6,990 nt of DNA from NCBI GenBank assembly GCA_016182435.1, contig JACPGN010000256.1, forward strand, positions 1-6,990, in the 5' to 3' direction. Position numbers and translations under genes: made by a program. The stretch comes from Lentisphaerota bacterium. GTDB lineage: Bacteria; Verrucomicrobiota; Kiritimatiellia; JAAZAB01. The notes below the pieces were generated by a model. That model did not search any database. It had not been told where the DNA came from and worked only from the letters and a program-made list of their open reading frames with translations. Shown here one piece after another: positions 3,140 through 6,984 of this stretch (positions are counted from its first letter, which is position 1; every line of letters starts with the position of its first letter).

Positions 3140-4591
3140 TCAAATTGCCAGGCCGTCCGTGTGATGCCGGTTGAGATTCTGGGTTGCGACCCAATTCAAC
3201 CATTCCCAGAAGCGGTAGCGCTGGTAATCATCGGTGTGGTCGCATTGCGAAGCGCAGACTCTATCCGCGAAACCATGAGCCGAAGGCGCGGAAAGCTTCT
3301 TGAGGTCGTCGTTGAGCGTCCCGGCGTCCCAGTGCGCCAGTATGACTGCGAAATCTTCGCCGTCCTTTTCACTCCCCAGGACTTGGGAGAGCGTTTTACG
3401 CCCGAATGCTCGCACGGTATCCTCCGGCCAGTGCGTAAAATGCGAGAAGGCCAGGTAATTCAAAGCCGCCGGGATCAGGCGGGCGGAAACTTCGCCATGA
3501 ATGCTCACGCCTTCTAACCCCGACCGATAGGCGCGCAGGCAGGCTTCCTTGATCGTGCTGACCGCGCATTGGTAGCGATTCACGCTGCTCCATTGGCTGG
3601 CCTGGTGAACAAACCCGACATTGCGCTTAGCGCCCGGCCGCAGGTCCTTGCTCCATTGCGGATTGGCGAAGGCCGCCGCGGGTGCGCCATCATCTAAGTA
3701 GGCGGTCAAGGGCAGGGCTTCTTTCAGCAACATGCCGGTCAGGGTCCACTGACAGATGCTTTGTTCGGGCAAGATGCTCAACATGGCCGGCGGCTTCTGG
3801 CCCATGCCGGTATTTTGCTTCAACTCCTGGCAATACTGGAATCCCGCATAGGTGGCGTAGGTCGCTAAAATGTCAGGGAGCCGATCCTGAATGGCGAGTA
3901 GCGCCTGCTGATAGGAGCGGCCCTGGTGGAAAAAGACATCGGGATCATCGGCGGGCCAGCCCTGGCGCAAGGCCTTGGCCAGCGGGGAATAGTCCACCAG
4001 GAAATCGCCGTTTTCCAGATTGAGGCCGCCGATTTCAAATTCCCGGAACAGCCAATCCAGCGATTCCTTCAACCAGGCCTGGAAGGCCGGATGGCCGAGG
4101 CAGGCGCCGTATTCGCCGTTGAATTCCATGGGCTGGCCCTTTTCGGTGAGCATGCGGGCATCCGGGTTCTGGCGCAGAAAGTTCTGGAGGTTGTAACGGT
4201 GATCGCCTTCGTAGTAGGCGCCGCCATACCAGGTGGTGCCGAAGCCCGGCATGATCGCCACGCCTTTTTTGGCCGCGTAACCCGCCACGCGCTTGGCATA
4301 TTCAACCCCGCCGTGCGAATCGCGCAGGAAGCCCCAGATGATGATGCCCTTGATCCCCAGTCCGGCGGCATGGTCCGTCAGGCGCCGATAATCCTCGATA
4401 AAAGTGTCCGCGTGCTTGAAATAGCGGTTATAGCAGCCGCCTATCTGCAGGCCGGGATCATCCACGAACCAGTTGGTGCTGTGGTCCCACGTCCAGAAAT
4501 AGGAGCTGGGCAGAGCTGATTTCGGGCGTTCGAGCTTGAAGCTGAAATAATGCCGGGGCAGAGCCCGCTCTTCGGTCGAGCAGATCCACAT
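3140..4591 (-). CDS. Putative TIM-barrel carbohydrate-active protein of unknown family
   Basis: About 483 residues. No signal peptide or membrane helix is seen, so it is probably cytoplasmic. I do not recognise the family with certainty. Very aromatic segments such as FWTWDHSTNW (residues 34-43, numbered from ATG 4597), alternating strand/helix blocks such as IKGIIIWGF (82-90) and VAIMPGFG (113-120), and acidic residues at strand ends (GGLNLENGD 190-198, Glu196; VSIHGEVS 364-371, Glu369) resemble (beta/alpha)8 glycoside hydrolases. Assigning Glu196 or Glu369 as catalytic is a guess. Two in-frame ATGs are possible. GAAGGGAG (4598-4605) abuts the first ATG (4597) with no spacing but lies six bases before the second (4591), so the second is preferred. 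The gene is convergent with the aminotransferase and has an isolated position, with a compound inverted repeat upstream. A sugar-processing role together with the aminotransferase is possible but unproven. Confidence 0.75.
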   Translation of the reverse strand: MWICSTEERALPRHYFSFKLERPKSALPSSYFWTWDHSTNWFVDDPGLQIGGCYNRYFKHADTFIEDYRRLTDHAAGLGIKGIIIWGFLRDSHGGVEYAKRVAGYAAKKGVAIMPGFGTTWYGGAYYEGDHRYNLQNFLRQNPDARMLTEKGQPMEFNGEYGACLGHPAFQAWLKESLDWLFREFEIGGLNLENGDFLVDYSPLAKALRQGWPADDPDVFFHQGRSYQQALLAIQDRLPDILATYATYAGFQYCQELKQNTGMGQKPPAMLSILPEQSICQWTLTGMLLKEALPLTAYLDDGAPAAAFANPQWSKDLRPGAKRNVGFVHQASQWSSVNRYQCAVSTIKEACLRAYRSGLEGVSIHGEVSARLIPAALNYLAFSHFTHWPEDTVRAFGRKTLSQVLGSEKDGEDFAVILAHWDAGTLNDDLKKLSAPSAHGFADRVCASQCDHTDDYQRYRFWEWLNWVATQNLNRHHTDGLAI

Positions 4592-4597
4592 AGACAT

Positions 4598-4605
4598 CTC
4601 CCTTC
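4598..4605 (-). promoter_or_regulatory. Ribosome binding site that decides the start of the TIM-barrel gene
   Basis: Read on the minus strand this is GAAGGGAG. It directly touches ATG 4597-4595 and is six bases from ATG 4591-4589. Normal spacing favours the inner ATG, which shortens the protein by two residues. Confidence 0.6.
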
Positions 4606-4637
4606 AAAAAAGAAACAATTGAGGCCGATGAAAAGCA

Positions 4638-4714
4638 GCCTGCCCGCCCGCCTGCAGCGCTATGTGCAGCATTGCGGGCAGGCCAGACTTCGTCCAGCGA
4701 TGTAGGCGGGCGGG
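4638..4714. repeat. Compound inverted repeat with two mutually exclusive foldings
   Basis: Folding one: GCCTGCCCGC (4638-4647) pairs with GCGGGCAGGC (4674-4683), with an inner CTGCA/TGCAG stem (4652-4656 / 4665-4669) and a 4x4 internal loop. Folding two: 4643-4656 (CCCGCCCGCCTGCA) pairs over 14 positions, one of them G-T, with 4701-4714 (TGTAGGCGGGCGGG). Both use the bases 4643-4656, so only one can form. The element lies 47-123 bases upstream of the minus-strand TIM-barrel start. It is probably a mobile or dispersed intergenic palindrome; a regulatory role in the leader is only a possibility. Confidence 0.7.
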
Positions 4715-4747
4715 AATGGTGGGGAAAAGCGCCGGGGTGGTCAAGTT

Positions 4748-4768
4748 AAATACGGGAAATACGGGAAA
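4748..4768. repeat. Short tandem repeat, AAATACGGG twice
   Basis: Two exact copies of the nonamer at 4748-4756 and 4757-4765, followed by AAA. The 4715-4819 stretch around it has no supported gene. It also holds ACAAGACTGTGGTT (4782-4795), which matches 13 of 14 bases with 306-319 upstream of murD. Confidence 0.6.
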
Positions 4769-4819
4769 AAGTGGGACATCTACAAGACTGTGGTTTGTCG
4801 GCGGCTGTCGGAGTGAGCT

Positions 4820-4884
4820 GGCCGAACGCCGCGAATCACGCATCGGCGCGCCGGCGACGATAGCGCGCATTCATCTTGTTGGCC
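4820..4884 (-). other. attC-like recombination site A (downstream of mazF)
   Basis: Read on the minus strand: GGCCAAC core (4884-4878), 5-base spacer, GAAT arm (4872-4869), ATCG arm (4861-4858), a GC-rich palindromic centre, CGAT (4845-4842), ATTC (4836-4833), 5-base spacer, and GTTCGGCC core (4827-4820, one bulged C in the pairing). Outer AAC/GTT cores, symmetric 5-base spacers, inner arms with unequal bulges and a length of 65 bp all follow the R''-L''-L'-R' plan of integron attC sites. It begins three bases after the mazF stop. The R' box departs from the strict GTTRRRY consensus, and the primary sequence differs from sites B and C, so this is a structural call. Confidence 0.5.
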
Positions 4885-4887
4885 CCC

Positions 4888-5223
4888 TCAGTAGATGCAG
4901 GCATCAAGCAGCGAAAGCACCGTATCCAACACCGCTGGCGCCGCGCGAGAGATCCTTCGAGCATTGCGGGCGCGAAAATCAATTGACTTGACCTGCTCGA
5001 CCATGACCACGCCCGTGATGCCAGGATCGTCCTCGATCGGCACATGGAAGGGATGGCCACGCCGGGTATTCGTGATTGGGCAGACGATGGCAAGTCCCGC
5101 GTGTTGGTTGAACAAGTCATTGCTGACAACAAGTGCGGGGCGTCGTCCCCTTTGTTCGTGTCCCGACTGCGGATCGAATGTGACGGCGACATAGTCGCCC
5201 TTGCTCGGAACGTACGTCGGCAT
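4888..5223 (-). CDS. mazF: MazF/PemK-family mRNA interferase toxin
   Basis: 111 residues, the same length as E. coli MazF. The family is a sequence-specific, ribosome-independent endoribonuclease that cuts mRNA when released from its antitoxin. The N-terminal half carries the family pattern: GDYVAVTFDP (9-18), the G-x-EQ-x-G-x-RP turn at 21-29 with Arg28, then VVSND and CPITN with Thr51. Arg28 and Thr51 match the Arg/Thr pair known as the active site of MazF enzymes. A later segment, VVMVEQVKSIDFRAR, matches the conserved dimer-interface stretch ending ADQVKSI-WRAR in E. coli. The ATG (5223) directly follows the TAG of mazE with no gap, and GGGAGG inside the last codons of mazE serves as its ribosome site, so the two are translationally linked with antitoxin first. 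Complete, with no missing key residue. Confidence 0.95.
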   Translation of the reverse strand: MPTYVPSKGDYVAVTFDPQSGHEQRGRRPALVVSNDLFNQHAGLAIVCPITNTRRGHPFHVPIEDDPGITGVVMVEQVKSIDFRARNARRISRAAPAVLDTVLSLLDACIY

Positions 5224-5472
5224 CTACCATACCTCCCGTCCGACGGGCTTTCCCCAGTTCACCACTTCGGGCTTGTAGTCCCGCGGAATCTGCGCAACGA
5301 GCCTCTTGAGGTCGCAGCCGCCTCGCATCCGTTTTGCGGGCGCGACCAGAATCACACCGTCACGAACAGTGAGGTTCACCTCATCGCCCACCGAGATGTT
5401 TGCGTCCGCCAGCACCTGGCGGTTCAAGCGTAGTCCCTGGCTATTGCCCCAGCTTTGCACTTTCGTGATCAT
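5224..5472 (-). CDS. mazE: MazE-type antitoxin (AbrB/SpoVT swapped-hairpin DNA-binding domain)
   Basis: 82 residues, identical in length to E. coli MazE. The N-terminal domain reads WGNSQGLRLNRQVL (8-21), then VGDEVNLTVRDGVILVAP (28-45), the standard AbrB-like DNA-binding and dimer fold. The C-terminal tail ends NWGKPVGREVW, closely matching the DWGEP...KEVW end of E. coli MazE that wraps around and blocks MazF. It is expected to neutralise the downstream toxin and repress the shared promoter. The ATG at 5472 has a modest ribosome site (CAGGTAA on the minus strand). A near-consensus promoter lies just upstream, so the pair can be expressed on its own whatever its neighbours do. Confidence 0.95.
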   Translation of the reverse strand: MITKVQSWGNSQGLRLNRQVLADANISVGDEVNLTVRDGVILVAPAKRMRGGCDLKRLVAQIPRDYKPEVVNWGKPVGREVW

Positions 5473-5485
5473 GGCTTACCTGCTT

Positions 5486-5524
5486 GGATATCCCATGTAT
5501 AGCCCAGCGCGCGCTCAGAGTCAA
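5486..5524 (-). promoter_or_regulatory. mazEF promoter with an operator candidate
   Basis: On the minus strand TTGACT (5524-5519) and TATACA (5501-5496) are separated by exactly 17 bases, a very good sigma-70-type match. Transcription would start near 5489, giving a leader of about 17 bases before mazE ATG. The 8-bp palindrome GGATATCC (5486-5493) covers the predicted start site and is a plausible MazE or MazEF operator, though binding is not shown by sequence alone. Confidence 0.75.
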
Positions 5525-5536
5525 GCGTTTCACGGC

Positions 5537-5599
5537 AGCCAACGTTCCGCCTGAACCTCGCGGCGCTTAGCCGCGTAGTGTTCTATGCGGGTGTTGGCC
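5537..5599 (-). other. attC-like recombination site B (between deoxyribosyltransferase-like gene and mazEF)
   Basis: Read on the minus strand: GGCCAAC core (5599-5593), arms CCGC (5590-5587) and GAAC (5583-5580) separated by a 3-base bulge, then a perfect inner hairpin GCCGCG/CGCGGC positioned at 5559-5575 with a 5-base loop, then GTTC (5556-5553) and GCGG (5550-5547) separated by a 2-base bulge, and GTTGGCT core (5543-5537). Core-to-inner-arm spacing is nine bases on each side. GCCAAC and GTTGGC pair fully. The TAA of the upstream gene lies in the central loop (5569-5567), as is common for cassette genes whose stop sits inside attC. This is the best formed of the three sites. Confidence 0.55.
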
Positions 5600-6151
5600 A
5601 TGTTCCATGAGTACTTTCAGGTCGTTTGTGATGCATCGAGACAGATCCTCTGGAGAGGTCACGTCATGAAACTGACTCGAAGTGAGTCTACAGAAACCTT
5701 CAAGGCACCTGTAAGGCAGTTTGTCCACTCCCGGCAAAAAGTACAGAAGCATGGACTTACCTAACTCTGATGCCCAGCCGCACTCAGCCGATGCCCCAAC
5801 CGAAACACTCTTGTCAATAACTACGACGAACACGTCGCAGTCCTTCACCTCGGCGTGGTCTCGCGGAATGAAGTCCGCCGGTTTGGCCAGCGACTTGCCA
5901 AATTGTTCTATCCGGTGGGCGCTACTGACGACACACCCGGCATTCGTGACGCCGGTATGCGCATGGTGAATGATGTCTTTGAGTTGCGGGTCAAAGCCGT
6001 TGTCGTCCATGGCTGTGGTGAACCGCGCGGCAACGAACACGACAGGTTGTTCCCGGCGAGTAGCCCGCGGGAAGTAGAGACGCCGGTTGATCCAGTAATC
6101 AGCCCCAGTATTGATGACAATGAGTCCAAAGCAGAGGCCGGGCCGGGCCAA
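5567..6151 (-). CDS. Nucleoside 2-deoxyribosyltransferase-like protein
   Basis: 194 residues from TTG 6151; the start is uncertain. The core has the marks of the nucleoside deoxyribosyltransferase fold, a small flavodoxin-like enzyme acting on N-glycosidic bonds: a first strand VVFVAARF (37-44), RDHAEVKDCDVFVVVID (97-113), and SVGASAECGWASELGKSMLL (117-136). In the last, Glu123 sits where the catalytic nucleophile of the family lies. The family includes nucleoside salvage enzymes and also hydrolases used in immunity or NAD/nucleotide cleavage, so the substrate is open. The first ATG in this frame is only at residue 48. A better initiation signal, GAGG before ATG 6209, lies one frame off. The C-terminus runs into attC-like site B, which supplies the last 11 codons and the stop. 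No partner gene is visible; the unit appears as a one-gene cassette. Confidence 0.7.
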   Translation of the reverse strand: MARPGLCFGLIVINTGADYWINRRLYFPRATRREQPVVFVAARFTTAMDDNGFDPQLKDIIHHAHTGVTNAGCVVSSAHRIEQFGKSLAKPADFIPRDHAEVKDCDVFVVVIDKSVSVGASAECGWASELGKSMLLYFLPGVDKLPYRCLEGFCRLTSSQFHDVTSPEDLSRCITNDLKVLMEHGQHPHRTLRG

Positions 6152-6202
6152 GTCCGCGAGATTGCCCTGTAGAGTGTTGCCTGGGATTATGCAGGATATG
6201 TC

Positions 6203-6217
6203 TTTTCATATTTCCTC
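6203..6217 (-). promoter_or_regulatory. Ribosome site and ATG at the head of the deoxyribosyltransferase-like unit, out of frame
   Basis: On the minus strand GAGG (6217-6214) is four bases before ATG 6209-6207, which is followed by a run of four A (6206-6203). The ATG frame stops at 6099 after 36 codons. Dropping one A would join it to the long frame and add 19 residues, giving about 213. The site lies ten bases past the GTT core of attC-like site C, a typical place for a cassette gene to start. Confidence 0.45.
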
Positions 6218-6218
6218 A

Positions 6219-6281
6219 CGCTAACGGTGGCGTTCAGCCTGAGCCGTGCTAGCGGCGATAGGCTGCGACGCCTGGTTCGGA
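6219..6281 (-). other. attC-like recombination site C (between GspG-like gene and deoxyribosyltransferase-like gene)
   Basis: Read on the minus strand: TCCGAAC core (6281-6275), 2-base spacer, GGCGT (6272-6268), 3-base bulge, AGCCT (6264-6260), an inner GCCG/CGGC stem around a GCTAGC loop, AGGCT (6240-6236), 2-base bulge, ACGCC (6233-6229), 3-base spacer, GTTAGCG core (6225-6219). Bulge and spacer sizes (2/3 on one side, 2/3 on the other) are the same as in site B although the bases differ completely. Outer core pairing beyond AAC/GTT is weak. It starts three bases after the stop of the GspG-like gene. Confidence 0.5.
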
Positions 6282-6283
6282 CC

Positions 6284-6634
6284 TCATTTCGTCTTCACGA
6301 TGTCGTCGCCGGTCTGAAAAGCGCAGTCACGACCCGCAGACCGCAACTCGTACCCGTTGCTACGGGTTGTGTAACTCAACCGCTGTCCCCACGAATCGAT
6401 CAGACCATCCGGCCTGATGTATCCGCTCAGTGCGCCACCGCCGAGCCCGTTTGTTGCAGGCAGCAGCTCATCGAGAGTGCTCGGGAACCGATCATGGTCG
6501 AGTTTGAACATCTCCAATGCTGTGGCGACTGCGTTCAACTTGCCGAGTATTGATGGTTGCCCCTCTGGCCGTCGGTGACAGGAGCCTGACGTGAGGACCG
6601 CCAGCATGAGCAGGATTCTTCCTATTCTCATCAT
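6284..6634 (-). CDS. Small exported protein with a GspG (major pseudopilin)-like C-terminal domain
   Basis: 116 residues. The N-terminus has a short positive start (MMRIGR), a hydrophobic stretch to about residue 15, and a cysteine at 19 in SGSC: a signal peptide, possibly a lipoprotein signal, though the lipobox is imperfect (Ser at -3). The rest resembles the globular part of type II secretion major pseudopilins: ALEMFKLDHDRFP (39-51), TLDELLP, GYIRPDGLIDSWGQRLSY (71-88), GYELRSAGRDCAFQTGDDI (94-112), equivalent to the DPWG...Y and GADG...DI calcium-site region. The usual prepilin cleavage motif and long hydrophobic helix of GspG are missing, so it should not assemble like a normal pseudopilin. 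It may be a secreted or lipid-anchored adaptation of the fold. Ribosome site before ATG 6634 is poor. Initiation lies 10 bases past a GTTGGGA core at 6651-6645. Confidence 0.65.
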   Translation of the reverse strand: MMRIGRILLMLAVLTSGSCHRRPEGQPSILGKLNAVATALEMFKLDHDRFPSTLDELLPATNGLGGGALSGYIRPDGLIDSWGQRLSYTTRSNGYELRSAGRDCAFQTGDDIVKTK

Positions 6635-6644
6635 TTGTGTCTTG

Positions 6645-6651
6645 TCCCAAC
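6645..6651 (-). other. Possible cassette boundary core (GTTGGGA)
   Basis: On the minus strand GTTGGGA fits the R' core GTTRRRY at six of seven positions and sits 10 bases before the ATG of the GspG-like gene, the place where a cassette junction is expected. No partner AAC arm making a full attC fold was found within about 100 bases on the far side, so it may be a degenerate attC, an attI-type half site or chance. Confidence 0.3.
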
Positions 6652-6686
6652 GTCAAACGTCCAATGAAGAATGATGAGAGAGCGAT

Positions 6687-6789
6687 AATGACCCATAATG
6701 AGCGATAAATGGGGGATATGGGGGATAAATGACCAATAATGACCAATAATGACCCATAAATGACCCATAATGAGCGATATCTGAGCGAT
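6687..6789. repeat. Degenerate 9-11 bp tandem repeat array
   Basis: Ten consecutive units fit (A)AATG followed by ACCCAT, ACCAAT, AGCGAT or GGGGAT, with a last divergent unit ATCTGAGCGAT. Unit starts are at 6687, 6697, 6707, 6718, 6727, 6738, 6748, 6758, 6769 and 6779, so lengths are 9-11 bases, close to one helical turn. It is followed by AT-rich sequence (AAAATTTT at 6789). No gene is supported between 6652 and 6990; apart from this array the stretch holds a small inverted repeat TGCCA-AA-TGGCA (6864-6875) and the branched structure at 6906-6984. Confidence 0.8.
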
Positions 6790-6905
6790 AAAATTTTCCG
6801 CTAAATTAGTACCTCATCCGCGTGGAACCGCTATAAAAACAAGAATGTTTCCGCCTATATTTGTGCCAAATGGCATTTACAGGTAATTGTATTCATGATT
6901 GATCT

Positions 6906-6984
6906 AAGGTGTCATAGTGGAGAACACCCTGGGGAACGGAAGGAGGGCGTAGCCCGACTGGAGTTCCCCAGGAGCCGATACCTT
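6906..6984 (+). other. Branched stem structure, possible structured RNA or palindromic repeat
   Basis: Outer stem: AAGGTGTC (6906-6913) with GATACCTT (6977-6984), eight pairs including one G-T. Inside, CTGGGGAAC (6929-6937) pairs perfectly with GTTCCCCAG (6963-6971), capped by GGGC-GTA-GCCC (6945-6955). A small GTG/CAC stem may lie at 6917-6927. Total is 79 bases. It does not fold as a tRNA (no anticodon or T arms). An open frame from ATG 6895 also runs through to the window end but shows no recognisable protein features. The strand is uncertain. Confidence 0.4.

Follow-up and report, generated by a model that had tools for sequence, protein, structure and literature searches.

An integron gene-cassette array with no integrase in view on a Lentisphaerota contig

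The window analysed here, a stretch of 6,990 nucleotides from a Lentisphaerota bacterium (contig JACPGN010000256.1 of assembly GCA_016182435.1), almost certainly holds an integron array in which three gene cassettes are each terminated by an attC recombination site. The attC sites of integrons, with outer cores RYYYAAC and GTTRRRY, are imperfect hairpins with conserved spacers and extrahelical bases, better conserved in structure than in sequence; one strand folds, and the integrase IntI cuts it at G/TT. As far as it is visible, the array is a CALIN (cluster of attC sites lacking an integron-integrase), a known kind of element with an ordinary mechanism, and probably no integrase stands near it. 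Less expected, attC sites are common and dispersed in the class surveyed here. The three units consist of four minus-strand genes: a gspG-like gene, an N-glycosidase-like gene and a mazE-mazF pair. An initial annotation, made from the letters alone, had placed three minus-strand units here; open reading frames and Pfam matches bear out the four genes. The parts of the array are listed below, with scores from R1, our attC covariance model.

6649..6651, minus strand: proposed 5′ start of cassette 1, the G/TT of the core GTTGGGAC, read from the sequence
6284..6634, minus strand: cassette 1 gene, 116 aa, with a T2SSG/GspG-like globular domain (PF08334, E 1.4e-7)
6219..6281, minus strand: attC site A, cassette 1 (R1 50.7 bits, E 1.4e-12)
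5567..6151, minus strand: cassette 2 gene, 194 aa, CMP/deoxyribonucleotide N-glycosidase-like (4jen, E 1.3e-9)
5537..5599, minus strand: attC site B, cassette 2, overlapping the 3′ end of the gene (R1 21.5 bits, E 1.1e-4)
5224..5472, minus strand: MazE-like antitoxin of cassette 3 (PF04014, E 4.1e-6, above cut-off)
4888..5223, minus strand: MazF-like toxin of cassette 3, endoribonuclease family (PF02452, E 4.7e-28, above cut-off; solved MazF relatives)
4821..4884, minus strand: attC site C, cassette 3, the last of the array (R1 28.9 bits, E 1.1e-6)

Three attC sites close the gene units

The best three matches to R1 in the window are A, C and B, in that order and all on the strand of the genes; the fourth, in an unfiltered search with the full model, reaches 9.1 bits. 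The sites are clustered within 1.5 kb, in one orientation and at cassette-sized spacing, and in each unit one or two genes share the orientation of the attC at which they end. A lies 2 nt and C 3 nt from the stop codon of the preceding gene, while the stop codon at 5569-5567 lies inside B. The palindromes that the initial annotation had seen at 6281-6219, 5599-5537 and 4884-4821, within 0 to 3 bases of the stops or overlapping them, are thus the top attC-model matches of the window, and the covariance-model search that it had proposed as a check, run here with a model of our own, matches all three. The call made from the raw sequence is confirmed. The cut points that it had named are also those read from the sequence, the G of G/TT falling at 6225 (A), 5543 (B) and 4827 (C) and, for the start of cassette 1, at 6651. 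AAC and GTT are present in all three sites; the outer R and Y bases vary, as they do among the sites used for training. The start core GTTGGGAC agrees at 6 of 7 positions with the reverse complement of cassette 1's own R'', TCCGAAC. To the right of 6651 the window has no attC model match and no recognisable attI.

Five related genomes (G001, G138, G125, G063 and G089) supplied the 22 attC sites of which R1 was built; it contains no window sequence. The sites were drawn, in cassette orientation, from 20 fetched regions, 18 of which surround integrases above cut-off. All but one were picked by eye among printed sites of at most 85 nt, other printed sites being omitted; the remaining one (L067 522-581) was added separately. 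Twenty-one lie on five intI-bearing contigs and one (L128 11097-11158) on contig C7 of G001, where no integrase was seen. A folding scan for AAC...GTT hairpins had low specificity, giving 89 sites in 21 integron-related loci (289,870 bp) and 59 in 57 control loci (798,084 bp). Under the final filters it retained only B in the window, and it was therefore used solely to pick training sites. A poor 12-site alignment of G001 and a six-site alignment that was off by one column were dropped for the 22-site alignment, A4.

The plan shared by the sites reads AAC, 2 nt, 5-bp stem, 2 nt, 6-bp stem, variable loop, 6-bp stem, 1 nt, 5-bp stem, 3 nt, GTT, with 2/1 extrahelical bases. Standard pairs make up 87.2% of the model alignment, and its covariation is 0.605, compared to 0.157 when shuffled and at most 0.156 in slid versions; pairs 2-76 and 4-74 are each broken in 7 of the 22 training sites. 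Values of 86.9% and 0.593 were obtained for 97 matches (E ≤0.1, 34 sources), a set that includes the training sites, the three window sites and a few mutually overlapping loci, in an alignment fitted to that structure. The highest score in control DNA was 14.1 bits (55 loci, 760,967 bp, default filters); two further G001 loci (37,117 bp, filters off) gave at most 16.3 bits, for a 27-nt fragment. Since the calibration was short, bit scores are a safer guide than E-values.

The initial annotation had described the palindromes as sharing a plan without sharing sequence. This holds within the window. However, site A is related in sequence to attC sites of the relatives G001 and G138 (L067:7077-7134 and L140:7433-7488). 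As to folding, A and B stand out among DNA folds (z of -2.5 and -5.5) but C does not (z +1.1). The poor fold of C is explained by self-pairing of GCGCGC, which competes with the attC form; in the attC register C fits the canonical plan.

Integrase genes and attC sites in the class

No IntI was found in the window by tblastn with the IntI of G001 (best E 0.61), nor does the window show the pair of intI and attI that adjoins the array of a complete integron. G001 is a metagenome-assembled genome (MAG), 'Lentisphaerae bacterium' NC_groundwater_387, and the closest relative found. Its IntI, on contig C80, scores 457 bits against a cut-off of 265. To the left of this gene G001 has an array that reads on the other strand, in which attC-like palindromes separate small frames; ten same-strand model matches, four of them training sites, stand beside intI. 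These attC sites follow the same plan as those of the window, and several share sequence with site A; the difference is the IntI beside the array, of which the window has none in view. By eye, two near-copies of a cassette poor in open reading frames are seen in this integron at about 5570-5836 and 7136-7390 of locus L067.

The initial annotation had proposed a CALIN with its integrase absent or beyond the window. The CALIN fits what the window shows, but an integrase may lie beyond 6990. The array could accordingly be a complete chromosomal integron, and no CALIN, with its integrase just past the right end, which we regard as rather unlikely. Its 5′ end (6651) does face the right end, 340 bp off, and IntI exceeds the cut-off in G001 and, within its class, in 103 of the 288 genomes sampled. 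However, these last 340 bp contain no intI-like match, and no plus-strand frame of at least 50 aa starts in them, whereas in G001 about 110 bp separate an attI core proposed by eye from the intI start codon. This comparison favours a CALIN without proving it. Moreover, in another genome of the class (G087) the 28 attC matches fall into four clusters, all on long contigs (C1 with 11, C3 with 6 and 4, C4 with 7). These clusters are at least 290 kb away from the only IntI above cut-off, a C1 gene with about 293 kb between it and the nearest cluster, or lie on other contigs.

Dispersed sites are frequent in the class. Matches to the attC model (E ≤1e-4) occur in 80 of 116 sampled genomes; 31 of the 80 have no strong IntI, and 24 of these 31 carry at least two sites, although MAGs may be incomplete. 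In G001 itself 31 matches (E ≤0.001) are spread over 15 contigs, 8 of them on the contig with intI. The near-complete contig C1 of G089 (3.88 Mb) has clusters near IntI genes and also four lone attC sites. Judged from these assemblies, CALINs in this class need not be assembly breaks. We tentatively suggest that the class keeps its cassettes mainly as small clusters distant from an integrase and as single cassettes, spread by an integrase acting in trans, instead of in one array adjacent to intI; the window would be an insertion of this kind, missing next to the shared flank in the closest relative found. By what is established for integrons, one strand of every attC would fold, an IntI of the type encoded by the relatives would cut the folded site at G/TT, and cassettes would be gained or lost at 6651, 6225, 5543 and 4827. 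This IntI would act in trans, would once have been present, or would be encoded beyond 6990. The class-wide counts of IntI and attC make the group useful for asking how CALINs arise.

The cassette genes and their relatives

In cassette 3 the MazE-like gene directly precedes the MazF/PemK toxin gene, the arrangement of a type II toxin-antitoxin system. Neither protein reached an NCBIfam equivalog cut-off. A search of 276 genomes of the class gave nine MazF relatives with 75-87% identity. The copy on contig C7 of G001 (MazF 86%, MazE 82% identical) lies among different neighbours (L109), and homology to the window spans 4876-5531. It spans 4891-5525 in L108 and 4869-5526 in L111, so that in these three of the best-aligned loci it covers the mazEF unit and little else; in L110 it extends to 5576. 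On C7 the pair stands among same-strand model matches at 5360, 6235, 8410, 9189 and 11097 of L128 (the last being the training site), between those at 9189 and 11097; this contig thus has the same mazEF family as the window among attC sites. A start core GGCCAAC was recognised by eye at the upstream edge of mazEF in four of the nine close loci (L109, L108, L115 and L116), and L115 has a full attC there. The other two cassette genes were found in none of the nine loci (1.8-3.3 kb fetched each), so that the fixed three-gene block, which the initial annotation had held would speak against an array, is not seen. It had also expected boundaries at the predicted cores. The extent of mazEF homology comes close to the predicted cassette edges, but the comparison is weak for the gspG-like gene and has no relative to draw on for cassette 2. 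From these loci, it seems that the mazEF family of cassette 3 occurs in cassettes and also outside them. With this pair present, losing the array would probably carry a cost. The integron on C80 of G001 (L067 1-7400) has a further, distant mazEF-like cassette at 3353-3921, with a MazF 33% identical.

The GspG-like domain of cassette 1 is preceded by what we take, from a lipobox, to be a lipoprotein-like signal. Eight close relatives of the protein were found (P0001-P0008), with seven on contigs shorter than 4 kb; the eight include one annotated from 'Kiritimatiellia bacterium'; alignment scans of genome contigs and viral contigs for this protein gave no relative. After a distant GspG-like gene in G129 (L098) comes an attC that belongs to the sequence family of site A and has a broken outer core (16.5 bits); another attC at this locus scores 25.6 bits.

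The cassette 2 protein matches solved CMP N-glycosidases (best 4jen). Its likeness to the CMP/hydroxymethyl-CMP N-glycosidase, which we take to be the enzyme named MilB, and to Blasticidin M covers residues 37-145 and keeps the E-x-G-W-A-S stretch. Compared with those enzymes, cassette 2 encodes a candidate N-glycosidase that is an orphan protein, of which 109 of 194 aa align. The match to the nucleoside-deoxyribosyltransferase family PF05014 is weak and below cut-off (E 1.8e-4). The only protein relative found, P0009, is 99% identical over 81% and is a 157-aa form, leaving the N-terminal start of cassette 2 uncertain. One may speculate that cassette 2 carries a nucleotide-depleting defence gene; none of the four cassette proteins has a PADLOC match.

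Weighing the array

Several observations weigh against the reading of the window as a cassette array. Neither IntI nor attI is seen. With 21.5 bits, site B ranks close to the lowest-scoring sites of integron loci, and the attC form of site C is not its minimum-energy hairpin. In seven of the nine close mazEF loci the fetched flanks contain no model match (only L109 and L115 have one), and L109 has a weak site right behind mazF (14.4 bits, within the range of control matches). Among ten distant GspG-like matches only L098 has a nearby attC, the other nine giving at most 10.6 bits. Cassette 2 has no relative with genomic context, the count being none in 276 class genomes in a search run without a positive control. 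The comparison with the nearest relative is limited to the left flank.

Part of this would be accounted for by a dead array: its attC sites would have ceased to recombine, and mazEF and its companions would be normal genes of the chromosome next to them. The mazEF loci lacking an attC match, the weak site after mazF in G001 and the poor fold of C all speak for it. We nevertheless consider a dead array improbable, the sites of the window having retained their AAC/GTT cores and stems and A scoring within the range of integrase-adjacent sites. An explanation of the palindromes as ordinary terminators of transcription, or as dispersed REP-like (repetitive extragenic palindromic) repeats, after unrelated genes is hardly credible: they come right after stop codons, and the window has further palindromes, but all three fit a model derived from other genomes in their AAC/GTT cores, 2/1 extrahelical bases and fixed spacers, whereas control DNA holds nothing at that score and the other palindromes of the window stay below 10 bits; we rejected this explanation as contradicted by the model scores of both window and control.

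Comparison with known integrons

Two attC sites suffice for IntegronFinder 2 to report a CALIN (PMC9024848). The window likewise has three attC sites in one orientation at cassette-sized spacing with no IntI in view, and differs from the definition in its short view of the attI side, 340 bp, to which the integrase-free distance seen is limited. According to PMC8618304 and PMC7370490, CALINs are proposed to originate by off-target insertion, loss of intI or rearrangement, toxin-antitoxin systems are among the commonest cassette functions, and integrons are already reported in Verrucomicrobiota. Like the toxin-antitoxin cassettes of chromosomal integrons, cassette 3 is a two-gene unit with an attC; it differs in being a MazEF pair in a host of Lentisphaerae/Kiritimatiellia type. 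The word 'mazF' is absent from the main text of PMC7370490. Lentisphaera araneosa belongs to the species set of an integrase study (PMC3108266). The taxon-specific attC models described in PMC8352920 cover 11 taxa, the Lentisphaerae/Kiritimatiellia group not being included. Among the matches listed in the open-access literature there was no paper on integrons of Kiritimatiellia, and little was found there on integrons of the Lentisphaerae/Kiritimatiellia/Verrucomicrobi lineage. The window adds to this lineage a new cassette array with an orphan nucleotide-hydrolase-like gene.

Chromosomal flank and surroundings

The array adjoins ordinary chromosome on its left side, with a DegT aminotransferase gene and a 485-aa gene of unknown family.

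4560..4770, no strand assigned: chromosomal flank, the 5′ end of the 485-aa gene plus intergenic DNA, alignable with L001 12842-13051 (66.8%, 217 columns)
Left part of the window: ordinary chromosome with murD, the DegT-type aminotransferase gene, the 485-aa gene and the end of mraY (mraY recognised by eye)

L001 is the DegT locus of G001. The DegT proteins are 91% identical, and at the DNA level the DegT and 485-aa genes show 87-91% identity. Together with the GspG relative from a 'Kiritimatiellia bacterium', this points to an uncultured member of that group as the probable host. The alignment stops about 50 bp short of the array end, and beyond the flank L001 continues into another gene; the array is absent there. 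Past this flank L001 has no full-length attC, the only matches in the locus being fragments of 27 nt and 19 nt, neither of them at that place. The comparison covers the left side only, and the difference may reflect gain in the window or loss in G001. The 485-aa gene has no Pfam match, homologues having been sought only through Pfam and NCBIfam, and an Rfam scan of the window gave nothing relevant.

Other palindromes of the window lie at 6928-6972 and 4636-4721 (REP-like) and, by eye, at 241-295, all below 10 bits with the attC model. Just outside the 5′ end of the array, 6673-6790 consists of short tandem repeats of the ATGACCCATA / GGGGATAAATG type. A comparable tandem-repeat stretch is present in G001 about 400 bp beyond the intI stop codon (L067 9198-9300).

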